Position numbers and translations under genes: made by a program. The notes beneath the pieces were generated by a model that searched no databases, was not told where the DNA came from, and saw only the letters and a list, made by a program, of their open reading frames with translations. 64,000 nucleotides of DNA from Xanthobacter aminoxidans (lineage in GTDB: Bacteria > Pseudomonadota > Alphaproteobacteria > Rhizobiales > Xanthobacteraceae). Of the stretch, positions 50,678-64,000 are shown piece by piece; positions within the stretch are counted from its first letter, which is position 1, and every line of letters starts with the position of its first letter. The stretch covers positions 1 through 64,000 of the forward strand of contig NZ_JAMJXC010000025.1 of the NCBI RefSeq assembly GCF_023571765.1, given 5' to 3'.

Positions 50678-52354
50678 TCACTCCGCCGCGCGCATGGGGG
50701 ATGCCCCCTCTTGCGGCCGCCCATCCGCCTTCACCCGGGGATCGGCCCAGCGACCCGCCTCGATGTCGGCGATCTGCCGCGAGACGTCGCGCACCACCTT
50801 CCGGGAGAAGGGGCCGAGATGCATGTAGAACAGCGCCAGCGAGAGCAATTGCTCCAGCCTGTCCAGCCGCTTGAGCCCGCGCAACGCCACCGGCCAGATG
50901 TGCACCGCCGCCCGCGGATGGCGCCAGGTGACGGTGGCGAGCACGCCGAACAGCCGTCCGAGATCGGCGACCATCTGCCTGACGTCGATGGGCGCCGGCG
51001 GGGCCGGCAGCTCGGCCGCGGCGGGCGGCTTGGTCGCGGCAACCGCCCCTTCCTGCCGCCCGACGAGTTCAGAAAGCCGGCGGATGCGGCCGAAGAAGGC
51101 GCGCGGGGCATAGACCCGGGCATAGACCTCGCGGTAGCGCCGCAGCACGTCGATGCGCGGCTCCAGCGTCGCGAAATTGAGGCCGGCGCCGGTCTGATCC
51201 CCGTGGCGGAAGTCCTCTTCCTTGATCGGGAACATCCGCCCTTCCCGCTCAAGCCGGCGGGAGAGCTGGGTATCGGGAAGCGCGTAGAGCAGGCCCAGCG
51301 AAACCACCGGGATGGCCGCCTCCTCGATCAGTTCCGCCATGGCGTCCGCCGCGTCGGGGGACTCATTGTCGAAGCCGACGATGAAGCCCGCGATCACCAC
51401 GATGCCGGCGGCATAGATCCGGTGGACGCTGGCGGCGATGTCGCGCTTGGTGTTCTGCTTCTTCTGCGTGGAGCGCAGGACCTCGGGATCGGGGCTCTCG
51501 ATGCCCACGAACACCAGATAAAACCCGGCCTCAGCCATCTGATCCAGCAGCGCGCTATCGTCCGCGAGGTTGAGCGAGGCCTCGGTGGAGAAGTGGAACG
51601 GGTGGCCGTGCGCCCGCTGCCATTCGATCAGGTGCGGCAGGAAGGCCTTCACCGCCTTCTTGTTGCCGATGAGATTGTCATCGACGAAATCCACATGGCC
51701 GCGATAGCCGAGCGCGTACAGCGCATCCAGCTCCGCCAGCATCTGCGCCGCTGTCTTGGTGCGCGGCACCCGGCCGTACAGCTCGATGATGTCGCAGAAC
51801 TCGCAGGTGAAGGGGCAACCGCGCGAGAACTGCACGCCCACGAACAGATAGTCCGGCAGGTGGAGCAGATCGAAGCGCGGCACCGGCGTTTGGGTCACGG
51901 CCGGCCGCTCTTCGGGCGTGGTGATGAGGCCGGAGCGGGCACCGCTCTCCCAGGCTTCGACGAAAGCGGAGAGCGTCGCCTCCGCCTCGCCGAGGACACG
52001 GAAGTCGGCGGCCGCATAGGCTTCGGGGCTCGAGGACACGTCCGGTCCGCCCACCACCACCACCTTGCCCGCCGCCTGCATGGCAGCGACGGCGGTCAGC
52101 GCCTCCTGGCGCTGGGGCAGCATGCCGCTGACGAACACCACGTCCGCCCATTCGAGATCAGCCGGGTCCAGCGCACGGGCGTTCAGGTCGCACAGGCGCG
52201 CCTCCCAGTGCGCCGGCAGAAGCGCGGCGACGGTGATGAGGCCCAGAGGCGGCGCCATGCAGCGCGCGCCCTTGAGCCGCGCCAGCTCCAGATTGCGCCA
52301 GAAGCTGTCCTGCGCAAACCGCGGATAAAGTAACAGTACCCGGACGCTCGACAT
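50678..52354 (-). CDS. B12-binding-domain radical SAM protein
   Basis: The 558-residue protein has an N-terminal Rossmann-like B12-binding domain (VRVLLLYPRFAQDSFW; the usual D-x-H-x-x-G is not seen) and a radical SAM domain with the cluster motif C180-x3-C184-x2-C187 (GCPFTCEFC), then EASLNLADD and FVGIESPDPEVL. The C-terminal part (DUF4070-like) is helical. Layout resembles the class B methyltransferase-like proteins and, more distantly, hopanoid methylase HpnP and BchE. The reaction is unknown. The start at 52354 is preferred to an ATG at 52378. Confidence 0.85.
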   Translation of the reverse strand: MSSVRVLLLYPRFAQDSFWRNLELARLKGARCMAPPLGLITVAALLPAHWEARLCDLNARALDPADLEWADVVFVSGMLPQRQEALTAVAAMQAAGKVVVVGGPDVSSSPEAYAAADFRVLGEAEATLSAFVEAWESGARSGLITTPEERPAVTQTPVPRFDLLHLPDYLFVGVQFSRGCPFTCEFCDIIELYGRVPRTKTAAQMLAELDALYALGYRGHVDFVDDNLIGNKKAVKAFLPHLIEWQRAHGHPFHFSTEASLNLADDSALLDQMAEAGFYLVFVGIESPDPEVLRSTQKKQNTKRDIAASVHRIYAAGIVVIAGFIVGFDNESPDAADAMAELIEEAAIPVVSLGLLYALPDTQLSRRLEREGRMFPIKEEDFRHGDQTGAGLNFATLEPRIDVLRRYREVYARVYAPRAFFGRIRRLSELVGRQEGAVAATKPPAAAELPAPPAPIDVRQMVADLGRLFGVLATVTWRHPRAAVHIWPVALRGLKRLDRLEQLLSLALFYMHLGPFSRKVVRDVSRQIADIEAGRWADPRVKADGRPQEGASPMRAAE

Positions 52355-52599
52355 CGCCGCCCCTATCGCCGCCCACATGATTCGCAGATGACCATAGGGC
52401 GGTTGCGGGACCGTGTCATCGCAACGGACCATGTGGCGTCAAGGGCAAGCTGGATCGCGGCCACGGCTCGCGCGGCCACGGACACGTCAGGCGCGCTTTC
52501 CCCCCGTTTGATCGTCGGCCGAGATGGCCCCGTCGCGCACAGGATGGGTCGGCGCCATATGGGCATCGAGATGGGAGATCATGCCTACCCCCATCTACC

Positions 52600-54006
52600 C
52601 TATATCTTTATTTCCTCAAGAAATAACGGGAAGTGCGCCGCGATATCGTCGACTTCCATGATGTGATAAATGTTGAATCTGTAGGCTGGCCCAAGGTCGA
52701 CCTCCGGGGGCGTAAAGGGAAAGGCCAGATTGCCGGCGGTCGACATGCGCCCCTCGAACCCCAGATGCAGCAGATATTGCTTTGTCGTCCGCATCACTTG
52801 CATGGCGCGGTCCGGGTTTGGCGCGAGACACTCGCCGAGTATGAAGACTTCATGGGGCGAAGGGGGCGCGCCATCGACGTCGAGCGGACGGACGCCGTCG
52901 ATGCCGTACAGGCGGAACGCGAGCTGGTAGTCCTCCGGCGCGTTCTCGCACACGAGGTCACGCACCACTTCCTTGATCCGGTCCACGACCCCCGCGATGT
53001 GGAGGATGAAGTTGGGATCCGCCGCTGCGCACAGCAGCACGGCCCGCGACCCGACCGCCACGGCCCCCTCCAGCTTGATGGTCTGGCGCGAAGCGGGGCG
53101 AAAGTCCGCGCCGGAGACGCGGGTGCGCCGCGCGTCCAGCGCCTCGAAGCGGGCGTTGGAGAGATCGACCGCCCCGGCCGGTTCGCGGATGGTGAAAGGG
53201 TCTGCCTGTTCATAGAGGCTGTGGCCGGCCACAGAGGCCGGGGTGGCGGCGCGCTCGGGGTTCATGCTTTCAAGCTCGAACCCGTCGCGATCTATCGTTG
53301 CCAGGATCGCATCGCGACCGCCGGGTCGGCAGCAAATGGACGCACATTCGACGATTTTCGCCATGTGGATCGCCAGCCCCACCGGAAGGCCGGCCATGAT
53401 CGGCAAGGCGGAGAAAATTCCGGTATCGCATGCGCGGCCGGCGATGATCACGTCGGCGCCGGACTGCAGGGCGCGCTGAAAGGCCTCCACACCCATTTGC
53501 CCGACGATGTGAGCGGCGGCGTCCACATCCGCCTCTGTGAGGTCGGGCATGGTATCCACCGGCCTGATACGGCCTTCGCGCAACGCCGCCTTGACGGCGG
53601 AGCGGGAAATGTCGGCGGGCATGTATGCAAGCGTGAAAGACAGGCCGTCTTCCGCCGCGATCTCGCGCACCAGCTCCAGCGTGCCTTCCAGATGCGGCGC
53701 GGCGCCCGCCGATCCGGCAGAGCCGATCACCAGCGGGACGCCGAGCTGCCGGGCGCCGCCAAGAACCCGGCGCAGATCCTGCTTCGTACTGGTCCGGGAT
53801 GTGGCCATCTTCCCGCTGCCGAGATAGGCGGGGCCAATGTCGATCGACCCCATGTCGCACCCGATCATGTCCGGCCGGCGCGCAAGGCCGGCCTCGAATG
53901 CCGCTGCGGGAATGCCATAGCCGAGCTGGCCCGACGCCCCGAGGATGCGGATGCTGCGCCGACGGCCGGACGCGATGTCGTCGAGAAGGGTGCCGATGCC
54001 GTTCAT
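52600..54006 (-). CDS. AtuA/DUF1446 family protein
   Basis: The 468-residue protein belongs to the acyclic terpene utilisation AtuA family (DUF1446): SIRILGASGQLGYG near the start, DMIGCDMGSIDIGPAYLG, VIAGRACDTGIFSALP and ILHIAGVVDRIKEVVRDLV. AtuA is required for citronellol-type degradation in Pseudomonas, but its reaction is unresolved. It overlaps the DUF4387 gene by four bases; the two are found together in many catabolic loci and may form one enzyme. Last gene of a seven-gene leftward unit. Confidence 0.88.
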   Translation of the reverse strand: MNGIGTLLDDIASGRRRSIRILGASGQLGYGIPAAAFEAGLARRPDMIGCDMGSIDIGPAYLGSGKMATSRTSTKQDLRRVLGGARQLGVPLVIGSAGSAGAAPHLEGTLELVREIAAEDGLSFTLAYMPADISRSAVKAALREGRIRPVDTMPDLTEADVDAAAHIVGQMGVEAFQRALQSGADVIIAGRACDTGIFSALPIMAGLPVGLAIHMAKIVECASICCRPGGRDAILATIDRDGFELESMNPERAATPASVAGHSLYEQADPFTIREPAGAVDLSNARFEALDARRTRVSGADFRPASRQTIKLEGAVAVGSRAVLLCAAADPNFILHIAGVVDRIKEVVRDLVCENAPEDYQLAFRLYGIDGVRPLDVDGAPPSPHEVFILGECLAPNPDRAMQVMRTTKQYLLHLGFEGRMSTAGNLAFPFTPPEVDLGPAYRFNIYHIMEVDDIAAHFPLFLEEIKI

Positions 54007-54305
54007 AGGTCGATTCCAAGCAGCGGCGCGTGCTGTTGGGCGCCGTAGACGTCACGGTCGCCGGGATCCCCCGACATCACCTTTCGGGGGATCGATATCT
54101 TGATGGCCAGCGCCGGACGGTAGATGTGGACGGCGACCCGCTCCAGCGCTTCGCCATAGCGCCGCGCGACCTCCGCGCGCAGCGTTTCAGCCGCGGCGGC
54201 CACGTGGTTGAATCGGTCCTCGTCGGGAAAGACGAGGTCGAAGGTCAGGACCAGCGGCCCGGCATTCTTGCTCCGCAGAACGGAGACCATTTGATCGAGC
54301 CGCAT
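54003..54305 (-). CDS. DUF4387 family protein, partner of AtuA
   Basis: A 100-residue protein matching DUF4387 (VSVLRSKNAGPLVLTFDLVFPDEDRF; IYRPALAIKISIPRK). The family is commonly found next to DUF1446/AtuA genes or fused to them and is suspected to be a small subunit or a regulatory component. It starts 22 bases after the flavoprotein gene and overlaps atuA by ATGA. No catalytic residues can be named. Confidence 0.85.
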   Translation of the reverse strand: MRLDQMVSVLRSKNAGPLVLTFDLVFPDEDRFNHVAAAAETLRAEVARRYGEALERVAVHIYRPALAIKISIPRKVMSGDPGDRDVYGAQQHAPLLGIDL

Positions 54306-54327
54306 GCGCCTGTCTCCGGCTGGTCGA

Positions 54328-55770
54328 TCAGTTCACGCCGACGGCGTGACGACCGGCGATCCGGCCGAAGACGGCCCCCCGCAGCACCGAGGTCGCCCCA
54401 GTATACCGGCCGTAATAGATTCCCATGGTCTCTCCGGCCGCGTAGAGATTGGCGATGGGCTGGCCGTCGTGGTCGACCACCTGGGCGTTGGCGTTGCAGC
54501 GCAGCCCGCCGAAGGTGAAGCAATTGGCCGAGCTGATCGGCCACGCCCGGAACGGCCCCTGAGAGAGGGGCAGCGCCCAGTTCGACTTTGGCGGCGAAAT
54601 GCCCTCGGTCGCGAGCCCGTCGCACTCGAGCGGCTTGAACGTGCCCGGCCGCGTCGCCGCGTTGAACGCCGCCACCGTCGCGGCAAGTTTCTGCGGCGGG
54701 ATGTCGAGCTGGCGCGCGAGGCCTTCCAGCGTGTCCGCCGTGAACGGCTTCTTGTCGCTCCGCACGGTGCGCTGCCAGTTCGGCACATCGTCCAGCCGCG
54801 CGTCGCAGATCACATAGGCAGTCCCGCCCGGCAGCCGCCCGATCAGGCGTGCGATGTTTTCATAGATCGTATCCACAGTGCCCGACGCCTCATCGACGAA
54901 GCGCTGGCCGTCGCGATCAACCAGGATGCCATAGGGAAACACGAAGACGATGGGCTCGGACTGGCCCGATCGCGGGTCGATGGGCTCGGCGTGGTACTCG
55001 GTGTAGTCGCCGCAAGGCGCCGCTCCGGCTTCGAGGGCCATCTTGATGCCCTCGCCGCGATTGTAGTATCCGCCCCGGGCAACGGGACGGATATAGCGCG
55101 CCTGCGCCCCATAGTAGCGCGCCTGCATCTCCGAATTGCCTTCGAACCCGCCGCAGGCGAGCACCACCTTGCCGAGGAAGCGGCGCATGCCGTCCCCCGT
55201 CTGCGCCATGATCCCGGTGACCGACCCATCCTCGGCCCGCACGAGGCCGCGCGCGCTGGTCTCGTAGTGGAAGTCGACGCCGAGCTTCTCGGCGGTGGCG
55301 GCAAGCGCCTCAACCAAAGCGAGGCCCCCGCCCACCGGGCAGATGCGGGTGGTGGAGGAGGTGATGAGATACGTCGCCATGTCGGAGAATTTGATCCCGG
55401 CGCTCCGAAGCCAGGAGAGCGTCGGGCCGGCCTCCCGCGCGAGCGTCGAGATCACTTCCGGATCGGTGAAGGAGAGCGCCTTCACGATGGGGGACCAATC
55501 CGCATAGGGACGGCCGGTCTCGGCGATCAGCGACGGATCGAGGTTCCACCCCGCATTCTGCATGAAGTGCTCTTCGAAGTCGTCGGAGACCTCGTTTTCG
55601 TTCTTCATGCGCATGAAGGCTTCGGTCCAGCGCGTATTGCCGCCCCGCTCCTCGATGCAGGAGCGCTCAAGGACGGCCACGCGGCGACCGGTCTCCGCGG
55701 CGGAGACCGCGGCGGACAAGCCCGCAATGCCGCAGCCGACAACAACGACGTCGTAAGCGTGCTCGATCAT
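54328..55770 (-). CDS. FAD-dependent dehydrogenase, TcuA/fumarate reductase-like
   Basis: The 480-residue flavoprotein starts YDVVVVGCGIAGLSAAVSAAETG, the dinucleotide-binding fold for FAD, and continues with LERSCIEERGGNTRW. ACGGFEGNSEMQARY and the C-terminal LYAAGETMGIYYGRYTGATSVLRGAVFGRIAG are characteristic of the fumarate reductase/succinate dehydrogenase flavoprotein family, with closest resemblance to tricarballylate dehydrogenase TcuA. It probably oxidises a polycarboxylic acid. It overlaps the aldehyde dehydrogenase gene by four bases. No TcuB-like electron transfer partner is present nearby. Confidence 0.85.
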   Translation of the reverse strand: MIEHAYDVVVVGCGIAGLSAAVSAAETGRRVAVLERSCIEERGGNTRWTEAFMRMKNENEVSDDFEEHFMQNAGWNLDPSLIAETGRPYADWSPIVKALSFTDPEVISTLAREAGPTLSWLRSAGIKFSDMATYLITSSTTRICPVGGGLALVEALAATAEKLGVDFHYETSARGLVRAEDGSVTGIMAQTGDGMRRFLGKVVLACGGFEGNSEMQARYYGAQARYIRPVARGGYYNRGEGIKMALEAGAAPCGDYTEYHAEPIDPRSGQSEPIVFVFPYGILVDRDGQRFVDEASGTVDTIYENIARLIGRLPGGTAYVICDARLDDVPNWQRTVRSDKKPFTADTLEGLARQLDIPPQKLAATVAAFNAATRPGTFKPLECDGLATEGISPPKSNWALPLSQGPFRAWPISSANCFTFGGLRCNANAQVVDHDGQPIANLYAAGETMGIYYGRYTGATSVLRGAVFGRIAGRHAVGVN

Positions 55771-57242
55771 AGCTTGACCGCGAACGGATCGCGCTCCTCG
55801 TTGGAAAAATCGATCATCACGTTGCGAATGCTGGTGAATTCATCGAGCGCCACTTCGCCGCGCTCGCGCCCGAAGCCGCTCTCCTTGAAGCCGCCGAAGG
55901 GCGCCTGGACCGCGACCGCGCGATACGTATTGACCCAGACCGTGCCGGCCCGGATGGACCGGGAAACGCGCATGGCCCGTTGCAGGCTCTCCGTCCACAC
56001 GCCGGCGGCGAGGCCGTAGCGGGTGTTGTTGCCGATCTCGATCGCCTCTTCCTCGGTATCGAACGGCAGGATCGACAGGACGGGGCCGAACACCTCCTCC
56101 TGGGCGATGGTCATGTCGTTCCGGACATCCTTGAAGATGGTGGGCTGCACGAAGAAGCCCTTTCCGAGCCCCGGGCCTTCGGCGGCGCCACCGCCGGCGG
56201 CGAGGGTCGCGCCGTCGCGCTTGGCGGCGTCGATCATGCCGAGGATGCGGGCGAACTGGGGTTCGTTGGCCGCGGTGCCCATCTCGGTCGCGGGATCGCA
56301 GGGATCGCCGAGCCGGATGCGGCTTGCGCGCTCGACCAGCGTCTCCACCACCTGATTGTAGACGCCGCGCTGGACCAGCAGGCGCGATCCGGCGATGCAG
56401 GTCTGGCCGGTGGCGGCGAAGATGCCGGCCAGCGCGCCGATGATCGCCTTCTTGAGGTCGGCATCATCAAAAATGATGTTGGGCGACTTGCCGCCCAGCT
56501 CCAGGGTGGCCGGCACCAGGGCCCGGCCCGCCACGGCCGCGATCTCGCGCCCCACGCCGGGGCTGCCCGTGAAGCTCACGCGGTCGATCCGGCCCGAGGC
56601 CAGCAGCGCCTTGCCGACCCGCGCGTCCCCGGTCACGACATTGACGACGCCGGGCGGAAAGCCTGCGGCCTCCACCAGTTTCGCGAACTCCAGCGTGGTC
56701 GCCGACGCGTGCTCGGAGGGCTTGATCACCACGCAATTGCCGGCGGCCAGAGCGGGGGCGAGCTTGTTGGACAGGAGCCCCATGGGGGAGTTCCAGGCGG
56801 TGATCAGCACGCACACGCCGATGGGATCGCGCACCGTGTAGTCCAGCGTGTCGCGCTGATCGAGCGGGATGGTCTTGCCCCAGAGCTTGTCCGCATAGCC
56901 CGCGAAGAAGCGATACTGCCGCGCCGCGAACAGCATCTGGCTCTGCGTCTCGCGGATGACCTTGCCGTTGTCCGTGCTCTCCAGCCGGCCCATGCGCGGC
57001 GCGTCTGCGGCCAAGAGGTCGGCGAGCTTGTTCATCAGCCGCGCGCGCTCGGCGCCGGAGGTCTTGGACCAGTGGGTCTCGAACGCCGTGCGGGCTGCCG
57101 CGATGGCGTCCGCCACCTGCTGGTCGCTGGCCTGCGCCAGCGAAGCCCATTCCTCGCGCGTGTAGGGGTTGATGGCGGGAAAGCGTTCCTGCCCCGGTTC
57201 TTCGACCCATTGGCCGTTGATGAAGAGCTTGTAGTGCGTCAT
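55767..57242 (-). CDS. NAD(P)-dependent aldehyde dehydrogenase
   Basis: The 491-residue enzyme shows N151 in TAWNSPMG, E248 in TLELGGKSPN and the catalytic C282 in ATGQTCIAGSR, with FGPVLSILPF and KESGFGRE toward the C terminus. It oxidises an aldehyde to its acid; the substrate is not evident. The ATG at 57242 is preceded by GGAG with six-base spacing. It lies in the same leftward operon as the flavoprotein and hydroxyacid dehydrogenase genes. Confidence 0.92.
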   Translation of the reverse strand: MTHYKLFINGQWVEEPGQERFPAINPYTREEWASLAQASDQQVADAIAAARTAFETHWSKTSGAERARLMNKLADLLAADAPRMGRLESTDNGKVIRETQSQMLFAARQYRFFAGYADKLWGKTIPLDQRDTLDYTVRDPIGVCVLITAWNSPMGLLSNKLAPALAAGNCVVIKPSEHASATTLEFAKLVEAAGFPPGVVNVVTGDARVGKALLASGRIDRVSFTGSPGVGREIAAVAGRALVPATLELGGKSPNIIFDDADLKKAIIGALAGIFAATGQTCIAGSRLLVQRGVYNQVVETLVERASRIRLGDPCDPATEMGTAANEPQFARILGMIDAAKRDGATLAAGGGAAEGPGLGKGFFVQPTIFKDVRNDMTIAQEEVFGPVLSILPFDTEEEAIEIGNNTRYGLAAGVWTESLQRAMRVSRSIRAGTVWVNTYRAVAVQAPFGGFKESGFGRERGEVALDEFTSIRNVMIDFSNEERDPFAVKL

Positions 57243-57282
57243 GCGAAACTCCGGCGATGTCCTGGATGCGTTTCGAGGCCGG

Positions 57283-58338
57283 TCAGACGTGACCCGCTGC
57301 GAACATCTGTCGTGCGACCTGCGAGTCGGGCAGGAAGGGGTGGGCGGCGGTGATCTGGTTGATGGGCGCGCCGGCGAGCCAGGCGCGCAGGTTCTCAATC
57401 GTCTGCCCGTAGAAGATCTCGTAGTTCGCCTCCGTGACGAACCCGATGTGCGGCGTGGCGACCACGTTCGTGAGCGTTCTGAACGGGTGATCCTTCGGCA
57501 GCGGCTCGATCTCGAACACATCGAGCCCGGCGCCGCCGATCCGGCGCTCCAGGAGGGCGCGGACAAGCGCCTCCTCGTTGACGATCTGGGGACGTGCCGT
57601 GTTGATGATGACGGCATCCCTCTTCATCGCCGCAAGCTCCGCGTCACCGACGAGACCGAGCGTCGCATCCGTCAACGGCATGTGGATCGTGATCACGTCG
57701 GACATGCGGAACAGATCGGACTTGGACACGCATTCCACCCCGTGGGGCGCGGTGCGCTCGGGGGTCAGGTTGGGGCTCCAGGCAACGACCTTCATTCCCA
57801 GGATCTGGCCGATGCGGGAGACGGGAATGCCCATGTTGCCCAGGCCGACGATGCCAAGGGTGAGCCCCGCGAGGTTGCGGCCGAGACCGATCTGCCAGCC
57901 GCCCGCGCGCAGCGAGGCGGTTTCCTGGGGCATGTGGCGCGTCAGCGAGAAGATCAGCGCCCAGGTCACCTCCACGGTGGTCTGGTGCAGGGCATCCGTC
58001 GCGCACACGAAGATGCCCCGCGCGTCGGCGGCGGCAAGGTCGATGGAGCGGGCATTGCGCATGCCGGTGGCCAGGATCACCTTCAGGTCGGGCAAGGCGT
58101 TGATGACCTCCGCCGGAAACGCCGTCCGCTCGCGGATGCGCATGACCGCATGGAAGCCACGCAGGCGCCGGACCAGATCCTCGGACGTCGCCACGTGATC
58201 CGAGAACGCAACCGTCTCCACGCCGGCAATGGCGCCGTGGGGCCAGAACCGCGCCGCCACGCCCTGGTAGTCGTCGAGGATTGCCACCCGGAAAGGATTG
58301 GGGACGCTGCTCTTGGGATGAGGGCTCTTCTCGTTCAT
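57283..58338 (-). CDS. D-2-hydroxyacid dehydrogenase family protein
   Basis: The 351-residue NAD-dependent dehydrogenase has the Rossmann motif LGIVGLGNMGIPVSRIG and the catalytic set: Arg in NTARPQIVNEEAL (the usual G is replaced by P), Glu in DVFEIEPLP and His in VATPHIGFVT. It interconverts a 2-oxo acid and a D-2-hydroxy acid, and the substrate is not known. Forty bases separate it from the aldehyde dehydrogenase gene, and the PrpF-like gene lies just upstream. Confidence 0.9.
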   Translation of the reverse strand: MNEKSPHPKSSVPNPFRVAILDDYQGVAARFWPHGAIAGVETVAFSDHVATSEDLVRRLRGFHAVMRIRERTAFPAEVINALPDLKVILATGMRNARSIDLAAADARGIFVCATDALHQTTVEVTWALIFSLTRHMPQETASLRAGGWQIGLGRNLAGLTLGIVGLGNMGIPVSRIGQILGMKVVAWSPNLTPERTAPHGVECVSKSDLFRMSDVITIHMPLTDATLGLVGDAELAAMKRDAVIINTARPQIVNEEALVRALLERRIGGAGLDVFEIEPLPKDHPFRTLTNVVATPHIGFVTEANYEIFYGQTIENLRAWLAGAPINQITAAHPFLPDSQVARQMFAAGHV

Positions 58339-58393
58339 CGATACCCCTTGTCAGATCTCAGCTCGCGGGCCTTCGCTCCAGCGTGAGCGCGAT

Positions 58394-59545
58394 TCAAACC
58401 CGGCCTCCGCCGGCTGCCATGCCGATGTGCCCGGGCACCCAGACCCGGCCGTCGAACAATCGCCGCGCGGTCCGGTAGAAACTGCCGCTGCGCACCTGCC
58501 AGCCGTCCGGTGTCGGCACCACGTCGGCATCGACCGTCAGCACACCGGCGGGCATCGCCAGCCGCATGGGTCCCGCGGAGCGTTCCGGCCGGCGGCATTC
58601 GGCGACGACCGACCCATCCATCTGCGCCGCGGCCGCCGCGCAGAGCGAAATGGTGAGTGGCAGCGCACGGTGCGGCTGGCCGTTGGAGATGGCTCGGATG
58701 ACGAGGTCGCCTTCGGCGCCGGCCTTCGCGGATGCGACGAAACAGATGAAGGGGATGACGGGGATCCGCCGCGCGGCTTCGGGATCTGGCGCGATGCCCA
58801 TTGCGACCGATGCCGTACAGCGGATGGCATCGAGCCGGGCAAGAATGTCGGCGCGTGCGTCCAGCTCCTGGGGTGCCTCGTGGCCCGTGAGGCCCACGTC
58901 TTCAGCCCGCACGAAGACGGCCGCATTGGCCGCATCCACCATGGAGACCTCGATGCGTCCCAGGCCCGGCACATCCAGCACGTCGCGCACGGCTCCGGTG
59001 GGGAGCAGCCTGCCGGTCGAAGCCCCGCCCGGATCGATGAAATCCAGCCGGATGGGAGCACCGGTCCCCCCGACGCCGGGAATGGCCAGATCGCCGTCGA
59101 ACCGCGCACACCCGTCCTCGACGGGAAAGGTGGCATGGATGAGCTTGCTGGTGTTGGTGTTGAAGATGCGGACCCGCGCCTCGTCGTCTTCCGGCGGGGC
59201 GAGCATCATCTCGTCCATTGCGAATGGCCCGACGGCCGAAGTCATGTTCCCGCAATTGCCGCTGTAGTCGACGCGCGACGCGCCGATCGCGACCTGCGCG
59301 AAGGTGTAGTCGACATCCGCGTCCGGCCGCTGGGAGGGCCCGACCACGCAGACCTTGGAAAGGGAGGAGAGACCTCCCCCCATTCCGTCCAATTGCCGCC
59401 CGTAGGGATCCGGGCTCCCCATGGCCGCCGCGAACACTTCGTCCCACGTCGCCCGATCAGGAGGCAGATCGCGCGCGTGGAACATGAGCGCCTTGCTCGT
59501 GCCGCCACGCATGAAAACTGCTGGAATGGAACGCTGCGCGGCCAA
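58394..59545 (-). CDS. PrpF-like isomerase (AcnD-accessory / DUF453 family)
   Basis: The 383-residue protein begins IPAVFMRGGTSKALMFH and contains VDYSGNCGNMTSAVGPFA and RIFNTNTSKLIHATFPV, all typical of PrpF, a diaminopimelate-epimerase-fold enzyme that moves the double bond of methylaconitate; relatives isomerise 4-oxalomesaconate or similar unsaturated acids. The start is a TTG at 59545; no ATG fits. It is the second gene of the leftward unit. Together with the lyase across the divergent region, it hints at a branched tricarboxylate route. Confidence 0.88.
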   Translation of the reverse strand: MAAQRSIPAVFMRGGTSKALMFHARDLPPDRATWDEVFAAAMGSPDPYGRQLDGMGGGLSSLSKVCVVGPSQRPDADVDYTFAQVAIGASRVDYSGNCGNMTSAVGPFAMDEMMLAPPEDDEARVRIFNTNTSKLIHATFPVEDGCARFDGDLAIPGVGGTGAPIRLDFIDPGGASTGRLLPTGAVRDVLDVPGLGRIEVSMVDAANAAVFVRAEDVGLTGHEAPQELDARADILARLDAIRCTASVAMGIAPDPEAARRIPVIPFICFVASAKAGAEGDLVIRAISNGQPHRALPLTISLCAAAAAQMDGSVVAECRRPERSAGPMRLAMPAGVLTVDADVVPTPDGWQVRSGSFYRTARRLFDGRVWVPGHIGMAAGGGRV

Positions 59546-59633
59546 AGCCCTACTCCCCGATCCACACCCCTGCCCGCCGCCCGCGCATCCTTACGCCCGG
59601 ACGACATCGAACCTCACGACCTGCGCGCCGCCA

Positions 59634-60845
59634 TCACACCTTGAGGAGACGGCACTTCGGATCCTTCTGCGCGGGAAACGCCGCCTCTTTCGAAACGGTG
59701 TCCACGAACTTCAGGAGATCCCAGGGGTCTTTCGATTCAGCCGGGGTCTTGCCGACGAACCGGTAGATCTGGCGCACCACCATGCCGTCCCCGCGGATGA
59801 AGCCATCCTTCGTGGACATGTCGTTGATGGGCATCTTTCGCATGGCGGCGAGCACGTCCGCGGTCTGATCCGTATTGGCGGCCTGCAGGCCTTTGAAATA
59901 GTGGATCAACGCATTGTAGGTGCCGGCATGCCCGACATCCGGCGGGCGGCCCGTCAGCTTGCGGAAGCGATCGGAAAAGGCGCGGGTCTCCGGATTGAGG
60001 TCCCAGTAGAAGGGCGCGGCGACCGGCATGCCCTGGATACCCTGCGGCCCCACCGCCTTCAGGTCGGAGTGGAAGGCGAACGGGGCGACCGGACGCATCG
60101 TCTTCACAATTCCGAAGTCGACGCACTGGCGCAGAAGGTTCACGAAGTCCTGCCCGAAAGTCACCACCCCGAGAACCTCCGCCTTGGAAGCCTGGGCGGT
60201 GAGCAGATGGGACGCGAAATCGGCCTCGCCCACCGGCGGGCGTGAGGTTCCCAGCACGGCGCCGCCCGCAGCCTTGATCAGAGGGGAGGCCTCGTCCTCC
60301 ATGATGCGGCCGCCCGCATAGTCGGAGACAATGAAGTACCAGGTCTTGCCGCTGGTCTTCATTGCCATCTCGACCGTAAGCCGGACGATGGTGCGCGCCG
60401 TCCAGTTCCAGACGATGGCGTTGGGGGAGCAGTCCTGCTCGATCAACACGTCCGTCGAGGCATTCTGGACGATGTTGATCTTGTTCTTGTCGGCGGCAAG
60501 CTTCTGCACACCGAGCGCGACCGCGCTATTGGTCAGGCCGGTGATGAGGCCGACCCCTTCGATGTCGTACCATTTGCGTGCGATGGAAAGGGCGAGGTCC
60601 GGCTTGTTCTGGTGGTCGCCGCTGACGATCTCGATAGGGCGTCCAAGCACCTTGCCACCGAAATCCTCGACCGCCATCCGGGCCGCGATCGTCGTGCCAT
60701 TACCACCGAGGTCGGAAAAAACCCCCGACATGTCTTCGAGCACGCCGACCTTTATGGGCTGCTGCATCTGTGCGTGCGCCCGCCCCAGGCCAGCACCAGT
60801 CAGTGCCAGCGCACCGCCAAACAAGACTGTTCGCCGCGAGACCAT
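59634..60845 (-). CDS. ABC transporter substrate-binding protein (branched-chain amino acid/amide type)
   Basis: The 403-residue periplasmic protein belongs to the Leu/Ile/Val-binding fold (IKVGVLEDMSGVFSDLGGNG, then ARKWYDIEGVGLITGLTNSAVA). The signal peptide MVSRRTVLFGGALALTGAG contains a twin-arginine-like SRRTVL. GGAGG lies six bases before the ATG at 60845, and a GTG two codons earlier is less likely. No permease or ATPase genes are next to it, so the transporter proteins are probably encoded elsewhere. First gene of the leftward unit. Confidence 0.9.
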   Translation of the reverse strand: MVSRRTVLFGGALALTGAGLGRAHAQMQQPIKVGVLEDMSGVFSDLGGNGTTIAARMAVEDFGGKVLGRPIEIVSGDHQNKPDLALSIARKWYDIEGVGLITGLTNSAVALGVQKLAADKNKINIVQNASTDVLIEQDCSPNAIVWNWTARTIVRLTVEMAMKTSGKTWYFIVSDYAGGRIMEDEASPLIKAAGGAVLGTSRPPVGEADFASHLLTAQASKAEVLGVVTFGQDFVNLLRQCVDFGIVKTMRPVAPFAFHSDLKAVGPQGIQGMPVAAPFYWDLNPETRAFSDRFRKLTGRPPDVGHAGTYNALIHYFKGLQAANTDQTADVLAAMRKMPINDMSTKDGFIRGDGMVVRQIYRFVGKTPAESKDPWDLLKFVDTVSKEAAFPAQKDPKCRLLKV

Positions 60846-61158
60846 CGACACCTCCCTGTAGGCGCGGCGTGTTGTTCTGACATTTGGTGGCTGGAGCCCT
60901 CAATGGGAGACTCGCGGACGCCGACCATCCCTTGGGACGGATCCGGCGCAGCCACGCAAACGCTGCCGCTACCATTATTGCTGTCGCCGCATCCATGTGC
61001 GGATGGCCAAGTCAGTCCCATGCCGCCCTCAAACTGTCAACAGTTTTCCGAAATTGCCGACAGGCGGGACTGGATCATGCTGTTTTTGAGCGTTTCTCCA
61101 TGGCTGATTGTCTGCAAGGTACGAAGCATGCCAACGCCCCCGCGCCGCAGGGCGCCCC
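60846..61158. other. Intergenic region between the GntR gene and the substrate-binding gene
   Basis: About 313 bases with no convincing gene. It contains the candidate operator listed at 61031-61046 and presumably the promoter of the leftward catabolic unit. Confidence 0.6.
61031..61046. promoter_or_regulatory. GntR-type operator candidate, copy 1
   Basis: AAACTGT-CA-ACAGTTT is a perfect 7+2+7 dyad upstream of the leftward unit. A near-identical sequence lies at 62033. The TGTnnACA core fits FCD-type GntR regulators. Confidence 0.65.
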
Positions 61159-61914
61159 TTAATAGGAACGCTGCTGTCGCCGCGTCTCGCGGGGCGAGGC
61201 GGCAGAGGCCTGGATCGAGGAGAGGGCATTCAAGCGCGCATTGCGAATGTGCCGCCGCATGCAGCCTTCGGCGGCATCCGGGCTCCGGCTGAGGAGCGCG
61301 GCCAGAATTTCCCGATGCTCGCCGAATGCCTCCTTGGCCCGGCCGGGCTGAGCGCTCGCCCTCAGCCGGTGCAGGCGGAGCTGATAGTAGAGACCATCCA
61401 GAAGAAGGCGCTCCAACTGCTCACAACGGGCACCCTTGATGATGGCGAAATGGAAGTCATCGTCGCCGACACCCTGATGATAGGCCTGCCCGGGCGAAAT
61501 ATCCTGCTGCCGGCCATGCTCCTCCAGAAGATCGCCCAGTGCCGCAAGCTCGGATGTGGTCATATGTTCCGCAGCAAGCCTTGCCGCCATCCCCTCCAAG
61601 GCCTCGCGGACGATGAAAAGCTGCGACACTTCTTCCGGACGGAAGTCGATGACACGAATGCCGATGCGGGGCGTGCGCATCACGAGGCGCCCCTCAAGGC
61701 GGCCCAGCGCCTCGCGAAGGGGACCCCGGCTGATGCCGAGCTGGCGGGCGAGCTCCGATTCGGACAGGCGCTGGCCCGGCAGGTATCGACCTGACGTGAT
61801 GACCTGCACCAGCTTCACGAAGGCCTCTTCCGCCAGCGAGGTCAAGGCGATGGGCTCAATGGCACCGGGCCCCGACTGAGGGTCGGAATGAAGCGGAATC
61901 GGCCGGGTGGCCAT
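61159..61914 (-). CDS. GntR family transcriptional regulator, FCD subfamily
   Basis: The 251-residue regulator has a winged helix-turn-helix (residues 30-95: RLSESELARQLGISRGPLREALGRLEG) and a C-terminal FCD ligand-binding domain (FIVREALEGMAARLA; DDDFHFAIIKGARCEQL; FGEHREILAALLSRSPDAAE) with the aspartate/histidine metal site. It is the evident local regulator, lying between the leftward catabolic unit and the rightward lyase unit, both preceded by the same operator-like dyad. Confidence 0.92.
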   Translation of the reverse strand: MATRPIPLHSDPQSGPGAIEPIALTSLAEEAFVKLVQVITSGRYLPGQRLSESELARQLGISRGPLREALGRLEGRLVMRTPRIGIRVIDFRPEEVSQLFIVREALEGMAARLAAEHMTTSELAALGDLLEEHGRQQDISPGQAYHQGVGDDDFHFAIIKGARCEQLERLLLDGLYYQLRLHRLRASAQPGRAKEAFGEHREILAALLSRSPDAAEGCMRRHIRNARLNALSSIQASAASPRETRRQQRSY

Positions 61915-62032
61915 GGTTGCACCTCACGCGTTGAAGGGCACCCCTGCTGACAGGACTGCCGATAATTTTTGCTGAAAACACCATATCATCCCGGCAGACA
62001 TTGAAGAAGCGCGCGCAGTCGGTCCAAACCCA

Positions 62033-62048
62033 AAACTGTTGACAGTCG
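62033..62048. promoter_or_regulatory. GntR-type operator candidate, copy 2
   Basis: AAACTGT-TG-ACAGTCG repeats the first copy in reverse orientation with only the last two bases changed. It lies 55 bases before the lyase ATG and 119 bases before the regulator gene start, placed to control both. Confidence 0.65.
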
Positions 62049-62103
62049 TCAGTATCCGGGTCTAGCTGAAGGCCAATGCCCCTGCCGCGGCGAGAGGAAA
62101 CGG

Positions 62104-62973
62104 ATGCGATCCGCGCTCGTTCTAAAAAACCTGGTTGCCCGCAGGGCGGCCATCACCGTGCCCGGCACGGCGAATGCCATGTTCGCACGGGTGATCGAGA
62201 ACCTCGGCTTCGACGCCATCTATGTCAGCGGTGCGGGCATCGCCAACATGGCGCTGGGCGCGCCGGACATCGGCCTGACGACCCTGACGGAGGTCGCGGA
62301 GGCAACGGCCGCCATCGCGGACGCCGTCTCCCTGCCGATCATCGTGGATGCCGACACCGGCTTCGGCAACGCGGTCAACATGGTGCGGACCATCCGCATG
62401 CTGGAGCGCGCTGGGGCGGCAGGTATCCAGATCGAAGATCAGGTCTTTCCCAAGAAGTGCGGGCACTTCTCGGGCAAGGAAGTGATCCCGACCGGCGAAA
62501 TGATCCAGAAGATCAAGGCGGCGGTCGATGCGAGGGTCGACGGCGATATCCAGATCATCGCCCGCACCGACGCCGCCGCGGTGGAAGGCTTCGACCGCGC
62601 GATGGAGCGCGCCCATGCCTTCATCGAAGCGGGCGCCGACATGACCTTCGTCGAAGCGCCCGTGACGGTGGAGGAGCTGGCGCGCATCCCGCGCGAACTT
62701 CCCGTGCCGCAGATCGCCAACATCGTCTTTGGCGGCCGCACGCCCGATCCGGGCCGCGAGCAGCTCGGGCAGATGGGCTTCTCGCTGGTGCTCTACGCCA
62801 ACGCCGCTTTGCAGGCGGCGCTGAAGGCCTCCTACGAGGTTCTGGAGGCGCTGAAGCGGGAGGGATCGCTCGCCAGCGTCAGCCACCGGCTCGCCACGTT
62901 CGATGAACGCCAGAAGGCCGTCGCCAAGGATCATTGGGACGAACTGGAGAGCCGCTACAGCGCCCTTCCCTGA
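62104..62973 (+). CDS. Isocitrate lyase/PEP mutase superfamily lyase
   Basis: The 289-residue enzyme is a TIM barrel of the PEP mutase/isocitrate lyase superfamily. Visible are metal and substrate residues D82 and D84 in VDADTGFG, E111-D112 in QIEDQ and the active-site KKCGH loop (117-121), which contains C119 typical of true C-C lyases such as methylisocitrate lyase and dimethylmalate lyase. It would cleave a 2-hydroxy acid to pyruvate, succinate or similar pieces. It starts a rightward unit with a substrate-binding protein 85 bases later. Confidence 0.9.
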   Translation: MRSALVLKNLVARRAAITVPGTANAMFARVIENLGFDAIYVSGAGIANMALGAPDIGLTTLTEVAEATAAIADAVSLPIIVDADTGFGNAVNMVRTIRMLERAGAAGIQIEDQVFPKKCGHFSGKEVIPTGEMIQKIKAAVDARVDGDIQIIARTDAAAVEGFDRAMERAHAFIEAGADMTFVEAPVTVEELARIPRELPVPQIANIVFGGRTPDPGREQLGQMGFSLVLYANAALQAALKASYEVLEALKREGSLASVSHRLATFDERQKAVAKDHWDELESRYSALP

Positions 62974-63058
62974 GGCAGGGAACCCGCCGGCCCATTTGCG
63001 ACGACGCGTGCAGAGGCCTCGATCAACAAGAGGCCCAACCACATCTGGGAGGACGAAA

Positions 63059-64000
63059 ATGATCTCGGCCACGAGGCGCGTATTCCTGAGTGCCGCCGGC
63101 ATTGCGCTGCTGGCCTTCGCATCCCCCGCATGCGCGCAGAACCCGAAGCTGCGTGTCGGCGGCACACCGAACTACGGCCCGGTCCTGCCGATCATGGCGG
63201 CGGAGAAGCTCGGCCTGTTCAAGAAGGCGGGCGTGGACGTCGAATTCTCCGGCTACCAGGGTGGCAGCGCCTCCATGGAGGCGCTCGCGGCCGGTGAAGC
63301 CGACATCGTCAACTTCATTCCCCCGGGGCTGGCGCTGGCCAGGGCACGGGGCGTGAAGGCGAGGATCATCAGCGCGGGCACCATCACGCCACGCGGATGG
63401 TGGGTCATGTCGCGCGAGGATTCCTCCATCAAGACGATCAAGGATCTCGTGGGCAAGAAGGTCGGCACCAGCTCGCCCGGCGCCGCCACCGATTTCTTTG
63501 CCCTGTGGGTGGAGAGCCAGTCGGGCGGCACCTTCACGCGCGTTCCCGTCGGCGGCTCGGGCCTCATTCCGAACCTCACCGCAAAGAATGTGGATGCCGT
63601 GGTTGCCTTCCCGCCGGTGTCCTACCGCATCGCCAGCTCGGGGCTGGGACGCGTGGTCGTCGACCTGGGCACGGCCATGAAGCCCAATGTCCCCGACGTG
63701 TGGGTCGCCTCCGACGAGGCGATCGCGAAAAAGCCCGAAGCCGTCAAGAAATTCCTCGCCGCCTTCTACGGTGCAGTCCGCTACATGCAGGAAAACCGGG
63801 CATGGACGGTCAAGTTCATCGATGAGGCCACGAAGTTCGGCGAAGCTGTCGCCGGCGAAGAGTTCGACAATACGGTCAAGGGGCTCTCCGCCGACGGCGC
63901 GTTCAAGGAGGAGTGGGTTCAGGAATCCCTCAATCTTGCGACGCTCGCCGGGATGAAGGAGCTGCCACCGGCAGCCTCGCTCTACACCACCGAGTTCGTG
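63059..64000 (+). CDS. ABC transporter substrate-binding protein (NMT1/SsuA type), 3' end cut by window
   Basis: The frame from the ATG at 63059 runs open through the window end (314 codons, no stop). GGGAGG precedes the ATG by six bases. The product has a signal peptide (cleavage near ACAQ-N), a mature start LRVGGTPNYGPVLPIMAAEKLGLFKKAGVDVEF and YQGGSASMEALAAGEADIV, typical of NMT1/SsuA-like binding proteins. It is co-directional with the lyase gene. Permease and ATPase genes are expected just beyond the window. It is unlike the branched-chain-type protein of the leftward unit. Confidence 0.88.
   Translation, partial: MISATRRVFLSAAGIALLAFASPACAQNPKLRVGGTPNYGPVLPIMAAEKLGLFKKAGVDVEFSGYQGGSASMEALAAGEADIVNFIPPGLALARARGVKARIISAGTITPRGWWVMSREDSSIKTIKDLVGKKVGTSSPGAATDFFALWVESQSGGTFTRVPVGGSGLIPNLTAKNVDAVVAFPPVSYRIASSGLGRVVVDLGTAMKPNVPDVWVASDEAIAKKPEAVKKFLAAFYGAVRYMQENRAWTVKFIDEATKFGEAVAGEEFDNTVKGLSADGAFKEEWVQESLNLATLAGMKELPPAASLYTTEFV

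Follow-up and report, generated by a model that had tools for sequence, protein, structure and literature searches.

What compound is broken down by the enzymes of a gene cluster that begins at position 52,600 of contig NZ_JAMJXC010000025.1 of Xanthobacter aminoxidans (assembly GCF_023571765.1, 5,823,613 bases)? In the 64,000 nucleotides analyzed here (positions 1–64,000 of the contig, the window), this cluster carries genes for a PrpF-like isomerase, a TcuA-like flavoprotein, an aldehyde dehydrogenase (ALDH), a hydroxyacid dehydrogenase, an AtuA/DUF1446 and DUF4387 pair, a C–C lyase of the isocitrate lyase (ICL) superfamily, two binding proteins and a GntR/FCD regulator. The initial annotation had listed the same genes and read them as one catabolic unit for a branched or tricarboxylic acid, a set that it did not recognize as a described pathway. 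The list stands: all of these genes are full open reading frames, and the nine proteins scanned scored above the Pfam cut-offs, with the second binding protein named by inspection. Gene content, families, conserved residues, the relation to the citramalate lyase CmlAB and the placement and conservation of an operator were computed directly. On balance we read the locus as a regulon through which a branched (alkyl-substituted) 1,4-dicarboxylate is catabolized independently of coenzyme A (CoA), a substrate class that is more likely than a tricarboxylate.

The DUF1446/DUF4387 pair matches both subunits of CmlAB, a citramalate lyase of known structure. With phmmer, AtuA/DUF1446 finds CmlA (9erq_A, E = 5.8e-109) and DUF4387 finds CmlB (9erq_B, E = 8.1e-18). 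AtuA is a full-length homologue of CmlA, with 184 of 445 aligned residues identical (41%), and 56 of the 58 columns that are invariant in a 24-sequence alignment of the family are unchanged in CmlA; DUF4387 and CmlB are identical in 38 of 96 aligned columns. The AlphaFold model of AtuA (predicted local distance difference test, pLDDT, 90.9) has a sole PDB match at E ≤ 0.001 in Foldseek, 9evf_A (template modeling scores 0.92/0.94), an entry released on 2025-10-08 under the title "Citramalate lyase - ADP - pyruvate complex". The pair thus matches a CmlAB-type lyase, for which cleavage of citramalate is the predicted activity. The two subunits are encoded next to each other in the window; the window pair differs from 9erq and 9evf in its company, a PrpF and an ICL-type lyase. 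Because both subunits are matched, the locus holds two unrelated C–C lyases, where the initial annotation had named one, the ICL-superfamily enzyme. In a literature search that covered open-licence papers, we recognized none describing the CmlAB enzyme. Kronen and Berg place a DUF1446 gene downstream of that for methylaspartate ammonia-lyase and leave the fate of citramalate unclear (PMC4682846), with which the CmlAB match agrees; this enterobacterial gene may encode the citramalate lyase that could not be placed there. In two Acetobacteraceae metagenome-assembled genomes (MAGs; L047 and L055), AtuA/DUF4387 occurs not with PrpF and the lyase but with a histidine kinase identified by Pfam and with two genes named by inspection, one amidase-like and one for a deaminase-like amidohydrolase, and CmlAB-type lyases may therefore serve further pathways. 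In the betaproteobacterial L066 and L072, a CoA-transferase family III gene immediately precedes the pair, which could represent a CoA-linked version.

The ICL-superfamily enzyme has the Mg2+-binding aspartates, the K-[KR]-C-G loop and the Arg-158 of that superfamily. The residues Asp-58, Asp-85, Asp-87, Glu-115, the K-C-G loop, Arg-158, Glu-188 and Asn-210 of Escherichia coli methylisocitrate lyase (MICL) are all kept, as Asp-55, Asp-82, Asp-84, Glu-111, KKCG, Arg-154, Glu-184 and Asn-206, respectively; the roles of Asp-58, Glu-115 and the Mg2+ pocket are treated in parts of PMC7609661 and PMC11982470. At two other positions the window lyase departs from this enzyme, with Gln-237 in place of Arg-241 and Val-208 in place of Thr-212. 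Arg-241, a contact residue, and Thr-212 of methylisocitrate lyase have a role in binding the third carboxylate and are taken as defining features of 2-methylisocitrate lyase. Glutamine stands at the Arg-241 position in 19 of 19 relatives (56–64% identity), and arginine in two MICL chains and in the genome's own PrpB. PrpB (TIGR02317) is still the best NCBIfam model for the window lyase, but the score of 300.6 lies below the cut-off of 354.4. Among solved chains, phmmer ranks petal death protein first; 3fa3, which bears the name 2,3-dimethylmalate lyase, scores 161.7 bits, below both petal death protein and MICL. With the petal death protein/2,3-dimethylmalate lyase branch the window lyase shares the K-C-G loop, the Mg2+ residues and the lack of arginine at position 241 (the Thr-212 position is Val in the window lyase and Ile in petal death protein), whereas petal death protein has Tyr where the window lyase has Gln. 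In the tree, the window lyase and 15 relatives form a clade separate from the MICL/PrpB branch (support by the Shimodaira–Hasegawa approximate likelihood ratio test, SH-aLRT, 99), and petal death protein, a long branch at an open fork, has no supported joining with this clade; the ICL and PrpF trees are both quick, with SH-aLRT as their only support and with long branches, and the ICL tree leaves out four of the 19 lyases (L149–L152) and L046. By the tests made, this enzyme does not qualify as a PrpB, although the catalytic residues checked are common to both, and a separate PrpB is encoded elsewhere in the genome. No characterized member of the lyase subfamily was found.

The isomerase has 3-methylitaconate isomerase (Mii, 3g7k; E = 2.6e-82) as its best solved match, an enzyme of E. 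barkeri. It is 45% identical to Mii (163/360) versus 38% to SoPrpF (140/365), and the catalytic Lys and Cys as well as an NTNT segment are common to the window protein and Mii. Its Lys-64 and Cys-98 align with Lys-73 and Cys-107 of SoPrpF, the catalytic residues of a Shewanella PrpF described as acting on methylaconitate (PMC5690661). In the tree, both Mii and SoPrpF fall outside the 28-row clade (SH-aLRT 95) to which the window PrpF belongs, and prpF (TIGR02334), its second NCBIfam model, scores 273.8 against a cut-off of 440.55. Taken with the residues of the lyase, the PrpF relation favors a branched dicarboxylate over a tricarboxylate, so that of the two substrate classes first proposed for the locus the branched acid is retained and the tricarboxylate becomes the less likely one.

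Is the locus one unit? A palindrome, ACTGTYRACAGT, precedes both the minus-strand operon and the lyase gene and is found nowhere else in the genome. The site before the operon is a 16-base perfect palindrome (61031–61046), and that before the lyase gene is a copy with two mismatches (62033–62048). The 64 kb hold two matches versus 0.10 expected, a count reached in none of 100 shuffles. Over the whole genome the exact core, ACTGTNNACAGT, is likewise counted just twice, both times at the locus; a reversed control pattern also counts two, and it is therefore the position and not the number of cores that carries the signal. When the site was sought in relaxed form across 1.19 Mb of sequence from 75 relative loci, it was found 21 times, versus 2.7 in Markov sequence (10 runs, 0–6). 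In 12 of the 15 clade lyases it falls within a span that reaches from 250 bases upstream of the called start to 130 bases into the gene; genes were called by a custom, codon-usage-based program whose starts are rough and which misses some genes. When 19 sites were mapped in 14 loci, 18 adjoined lyase, transporter, DUF4387-AtuA, GntR, flavoprotein or MmgE/PrpD genes. The exception (L049:9103) is an exact core between an amidase-like and another gene, in a locus with AtuA and a hydroxyacid dehydrogenase but no lyase. Among the 19 lyase loci, a GntR relative (37–52%) is present in 12, all 12 of which have a relaxed site; one of the seven without GntR has a site, on a 3.9-kb contig, in a tally that counts related loci separately and draws mostly on loci among which the motif was first noticed. 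The four lyases added later show the relaxed site only where GntR is present (1/4), and in L151 a two-mismatch copy lies ∼110 bases upstream. Five exact cores were found in four of ten scanned genomes. The sole one of the 5.6-Mb genome G393 lies between AtuA and the lyase, and one in G308 is likewise within a cluster studied here. A FadR-type operator pattern gave 0 matches. By the placement of the operator and its tie with the GntR/FCD gene, this looks like a real regulon, in which the GntR/FCD protein would bind the palindromes.

The gene set was also followed in relatives, as the initial annotation had advised. Scanning GTDB genomes for AtuA yielded 55 loci of differing length, 22 of them at least 21 kb long, and co-occurrence was scored by tblastn at 60% coverage. 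DUF4387 is present in 54, the ICL lyase in 17 (16 with the catalytic motif, which L046 lacks), GntR in 11, PrpF and the flavoprotein in 10 each, MmgE/PrpD in nine and the hydroxyacid dehydrogenase in eight; among the loci of at least 21 kb, PrpF is found in nine and the ICL lyase in 13. For scale, 73 of the 385 genomes of the class have a PrpF match and 37 an AtuA match. All 10 PrpF-bearing loci also hold the ICL lyase, and they come from Microvirga (3), Bosea (2), Bradyrhizobium, Kiloniellales, Tepidamorphaceae, Rhizobiaceae and an unplaced alphaproteobacterial MAG. AtuA/DUF4387 stands without PrpF or lyase in 38 of the 55 loci (9/22 of the longer ones). From the PrpF side, 20 regions were compared, namely 19 of the 23 best matches outside the genome (G301, G038, G290 and G200 were left out) and one AtuA region; PrpF was called in 18, the lyase in 10 and the flavoprotein in 10, and the three occur there without AtuA. 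All three are present in L126–L127 (lyase 61–62%, PrpF 48–49%, flavoprotein 62%). L134 (G308:C1:281500-300500) and L138 (G216) unite a thiolase, an AMP-binding ligase, a TcuA-like flavoprotein, ALDH, a lyase, a short-chain dehydrogenase/reductase, PrpF and GntR, and in the betaproteobacterial L081/L084 AtuA is accompanied by an aconitase-family protein, a flavoprotein and a lyase. Because AtuA/DUF4387 and PrpF/lyase/flavoprotein are each found apart, the set is modular. Within the genus (14 genomes), no lyase relative above 46% was found outside this genome, and DUF4387 is present in two genomes, the second of which has, of the queries used, only the AtuA/DUF4387 pair, at 34–39%. With so thin a presence, the locus is sporadic. 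The lyase, PrpF, CmlAB, flavoprotein and regulator thus recur together in several families, while transporters, ALDH and hydratases vary. Neighborhood conservation and the common operator bear out the idea of one catabolic unit, even though its parts also occur separately, which the initial annotation had named as grounds for rejecting it.

Of two TcuA models, the flavoprotein exceeds the cut-off of one by a single bit (NF006130, 370.2 bits, cut-off 369) and falls below that of the other (TIGR02485, 215.9 versus 372.55); it is 58–62% identical to flavoproteins that adjoin PrpF in L126–L129. The ALDH is 66–67% identical to that beside the flavoprotein, lyase and PrpF in L134/L138, and relatives of the hydroxyacid dehydrogenase (63–69%) lie directly behind AtuA in L045 and L049; the roles we give to these two enzymes are guesses.

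The substrate and the order of steps are inferred from the families, which fit the import, dehydrogenation, isomerization and retro-aldol cleavage proposed from the outset. The acid would be imported by the ATP-binding cassette (ABC) set behind the lyase gene, perhaps with a second system represented here only by the LivK-type binding protein, and the ALDH and hydroxyacid dehydrogenase could serve in upstream oxidation or stereochemistry. The TcuA-like flavoenzyme would then yield an unsaturated branched diacid, the PrpF/Mii-like isomerase would shift its double bond from the itaconate to the maleate type, and a hydratase would give a 2-alkylmalate; in relatives this hydratase may be an MmgE/PrpD or aconitase family member, not present on the window contig stretch. 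MmgE/PrpD proteins can act on 1,4-dicarboxylates as dehydratases, decarboxylases, epimerases or isomerases (PMC12290011). Cleavage by CmlAB, the Gln241-type lyase or both would end the route in pyruvate and a short acid (acetate or propionate), with citramalate-like substrates falling to CmlAB and dimethylmalate-like or R-alkylmalate-like ones to the ICL-superfamily enzyme. Any propionate formed could enter the separate methylcitrate cycle, and the GntR/FCD protein would be released from ACTGTYRACAGT by a pathway acid. An orthologue of the relatives' MmgE/PrpD was sought as the missing hydratase and rejected: four of the six genome matches were compared, three with at most 33% identity and the fourth, the C7 PrpD, with no match at E 1e-10.

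Several observations weigh against this reading. No hydratase family occurs among the nine scanned proteins and no such gene was seen on the contig stretch, and the presence of two lyases for one pathway is unexplained. Neither the transporters nor the ALDH are conserved, the latter being found in none of the 55 AtuA loci. The lyases of L134 and L138 keep Arg-241 despite a similar gene set, and the contact of this residue with the third carboxylate enters the argument as background. The top NCBIfam model of PrpF is 4-oxalomesaconate tautomerase (NF033377, 318 against a cut-off of 440, hence below it), and no Mii model is among its NCBIfam matches. Relatives' flavoproteins pass NF006130 widely (534 and 559 bits), which favors a tricarballylate-like substrate for that step. 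As to the operator, a second exact core of G308 lies at C1:278118, ∼19 kb from the L134 cluster, and G292 and G108 have one each on contigs without a lyase match; among the four further lyases (56–61%), none has the exact core and one the relaxed form, and the three without a site also lack the regulator.

The NF006130 scores of the window flavoprotein and its relatives, the Shewanella PrpF that uses methylaconitate (as PMC5690661 describes it) and the union of flavoprotein, PrpF, ALDH and an Arg241-type lyase in L134/L138 would suit a tricarboxylate regulon, in which the TcuA-like enzyme oxidizes a substituted tricarballylate to an aconitate that PrpF isomerizes and that, once hydrated, is split by the ICL-type lyase. 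We regard this as unlikely, given the glutamine at the Arg-241 position in the window lyase and in all 19 relatives checked, the closer relation of PrpF to Mii, the stronger TcuA with TcuB elsewhere in the genome, and a CmlAB left without a role. The tricarballylate operon is tcuABC, with which the locus has a TcuA-type FAD (flavin adenine dinucleotide) enzyme in common, but it lacks TcuB and has a GntR regulator. A stronger TcuA (716.6 bits) lies on C76 beside the only TcuB match of the genome (465 bits, over the CitB cut-off; 480 of 524, below, in a second TcuB model), so a plain tricarballylate operon was rejected for the window. Rejected likewise was the propionate cycle, whose 2-methylcitrate cluster is on C7 (PrpB and PrpC pass their cut-offs with 416.7 and 697.1 bits, and PrpD reaches 915 of 950). 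With both encoded elsewhere, each of these known pathways is accounted for without the window set. A second PrpF, 35% identical, adjoins an amidase on C5.

A variant of the 2-methylcitrate cycle that uses PrpF and a PrpB-like lyase could still account for prpB and prpF being the best and second NCBIfam models of lyase and isomerase, but this is very improbable, as both are below cut-off, the lyase is outside the MICL/PrpB branch, no citrate-synthase or aconitase family is among the nine scanned proteins, and prpBCD is already present on C7. The lower part of nicotinate fermentation runs from 3-methylitaconate through dimethylmaleate and dimethylmalate to propionate and pyruvate. A segment of this kind, serving exogenous methylitaconate or dimethylmaleate with CmlAB as a side branch to citramalate, would agree with Mii and petal death protein as best solved matches and with methylcitrate cycle genes available for the propionate; it is nonetheless doubtful in the face of the low score of 3fa3 and of a lack of hydratase or nicotinate-type families among the nine scanned proteins. 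That independent catabolic modules merely lie side by side would explain the many loci with AtuA/DUF4387 but no PrpF or lyase, the converse PrpF/lyase/flavoprotein groups and the differing transporters. We hold it to be improbable, since many relatives have the operator between the lyase and the genes for CmlAB or a transporter, and since the window genome has no further copy of its exact core. The proposed regulon for a branched 1,4-dicarboxylate also resembles a CoA-dependent itaconate/methylsuccinate pathway, in that branched C5-dicarboxylates are cleaved towards pyruvate and an MmgE/PrpD protein is in its cluster, as in relatives of the window locus; the route set out in PMC12290011 runs through CoA esters, whereas no CoA-transferase, ligase or citramalyl-CoA lyase family is among the nine scanned window proteins.

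The features of the window are collected in the table below. The minus-strand genes run from the binding protein through PrpF, hydroxyacid dehydrogenase, ALDH, flavoprotein and DUF4387 to AtuA, with 4-base overlaps at ALDH/flavoprotein and DUF4387/AtuA; the GntR/FCD gene lies upstream on the same strand, and the lyase gene diverges from it. No LIV permease adjoins the LivK-type binding protein. Downstream of the lyase gene, the second binding protein is followed by permease-, ATPase- and permease-like frames (named by inspection) up to 66406, on a contig that extends to 66571, so that the locus, first delimited as 52600–64000, really ends at ∼66406. On its far side it is adjoined by a long minus-strand frame (50678–52432) resembling, by inspection, a B12-binding-domain radical SAM protein.

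Table. Genes and operator-like sites of the locus within the window.
Feature	Position	Strand	Basis or remark
AtuA/DUF1446, putative CmlA-type citramalate lyase large subunit	52600..54006	-	phmmer, AlphaFold/Foldseek
DUF4387, putative CmlB-type small subunit	54003..54305	-	phmmer; stop overlaps AtuA start by 4 bases
FAD dehydrogenase, TcuA-like paralogue	54328..55770	-	Pfam FAD_binding_2; NF006130
Aldehyde dehydrogenase	55767..57242	-	Pfam Aldedh 564.9 bits; start is ATG 57242, not the longer frame
D-2-hydroxyacid dehydrogenase family protein	57283..58338	-	Pfam 2-Hacid_dh_C 184 bits
PrpF-family isomerase, Mii-like	58394..59545	-	Start TTG; alternative ATG 59512
LivK-type (Peripla_BP_6) substrate-binding protein	59634..60851	-	Pfam 294.1 bits; start GTG; alternative ATG 60845
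Operator-like palindrome AAACTGTCAACAGTTT	61031..61046	.	Precedes minus-strand operon
GntR/FCD regulator	61159..61914	-	Pfam FCD and GntR
Second operator-like site AAACTGTTGACAGTCG	62033..62048	.	55 bases upstream of lyase gene
ICL-superfamily C–C lyase (Pfam PEP_mutase/ICL)	62104..62973	+	Gln237 at Arg241 position of methylisocitrate lyase
NMT1/TauA-like substrate-binding protein	63059..64000 (gene end 64024, outside window)	+	Named by inspection

The locus is thus an apparently co-regulated, sporadic catabolic set of known enzyme kinds, and neither a description of their combination nor a pathway covering the whole gene set was found in the open-licence papers searched. More tentatively, at a little under an even chance, it may stand for a CoA-independent branched-dicarboxylate route not yet described, mostly of Alphaproteobacteria by the relatives named, with two unrelated pyruvate-forming lyases (the ADP-binding CmlAB and a new Gln241-type ICL subfamily), hydratases and transporters that can be exchanged, and a single conserved operator of the GntR/FCD type, ACTGTYRACAGT. 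To find and test the regulon, both this operator and the Gln241 mark are direct handles. If true, these proposals would be a caution that the labels "acyclic terpene utilisation" and "methylisocitrate lyase" should not be accepted uncritically, and a CoA-free route with CmlAB would give the former DUF1446/DUF4387 proteins a role as lyases in bacteria such as Microvirga and Bosea.

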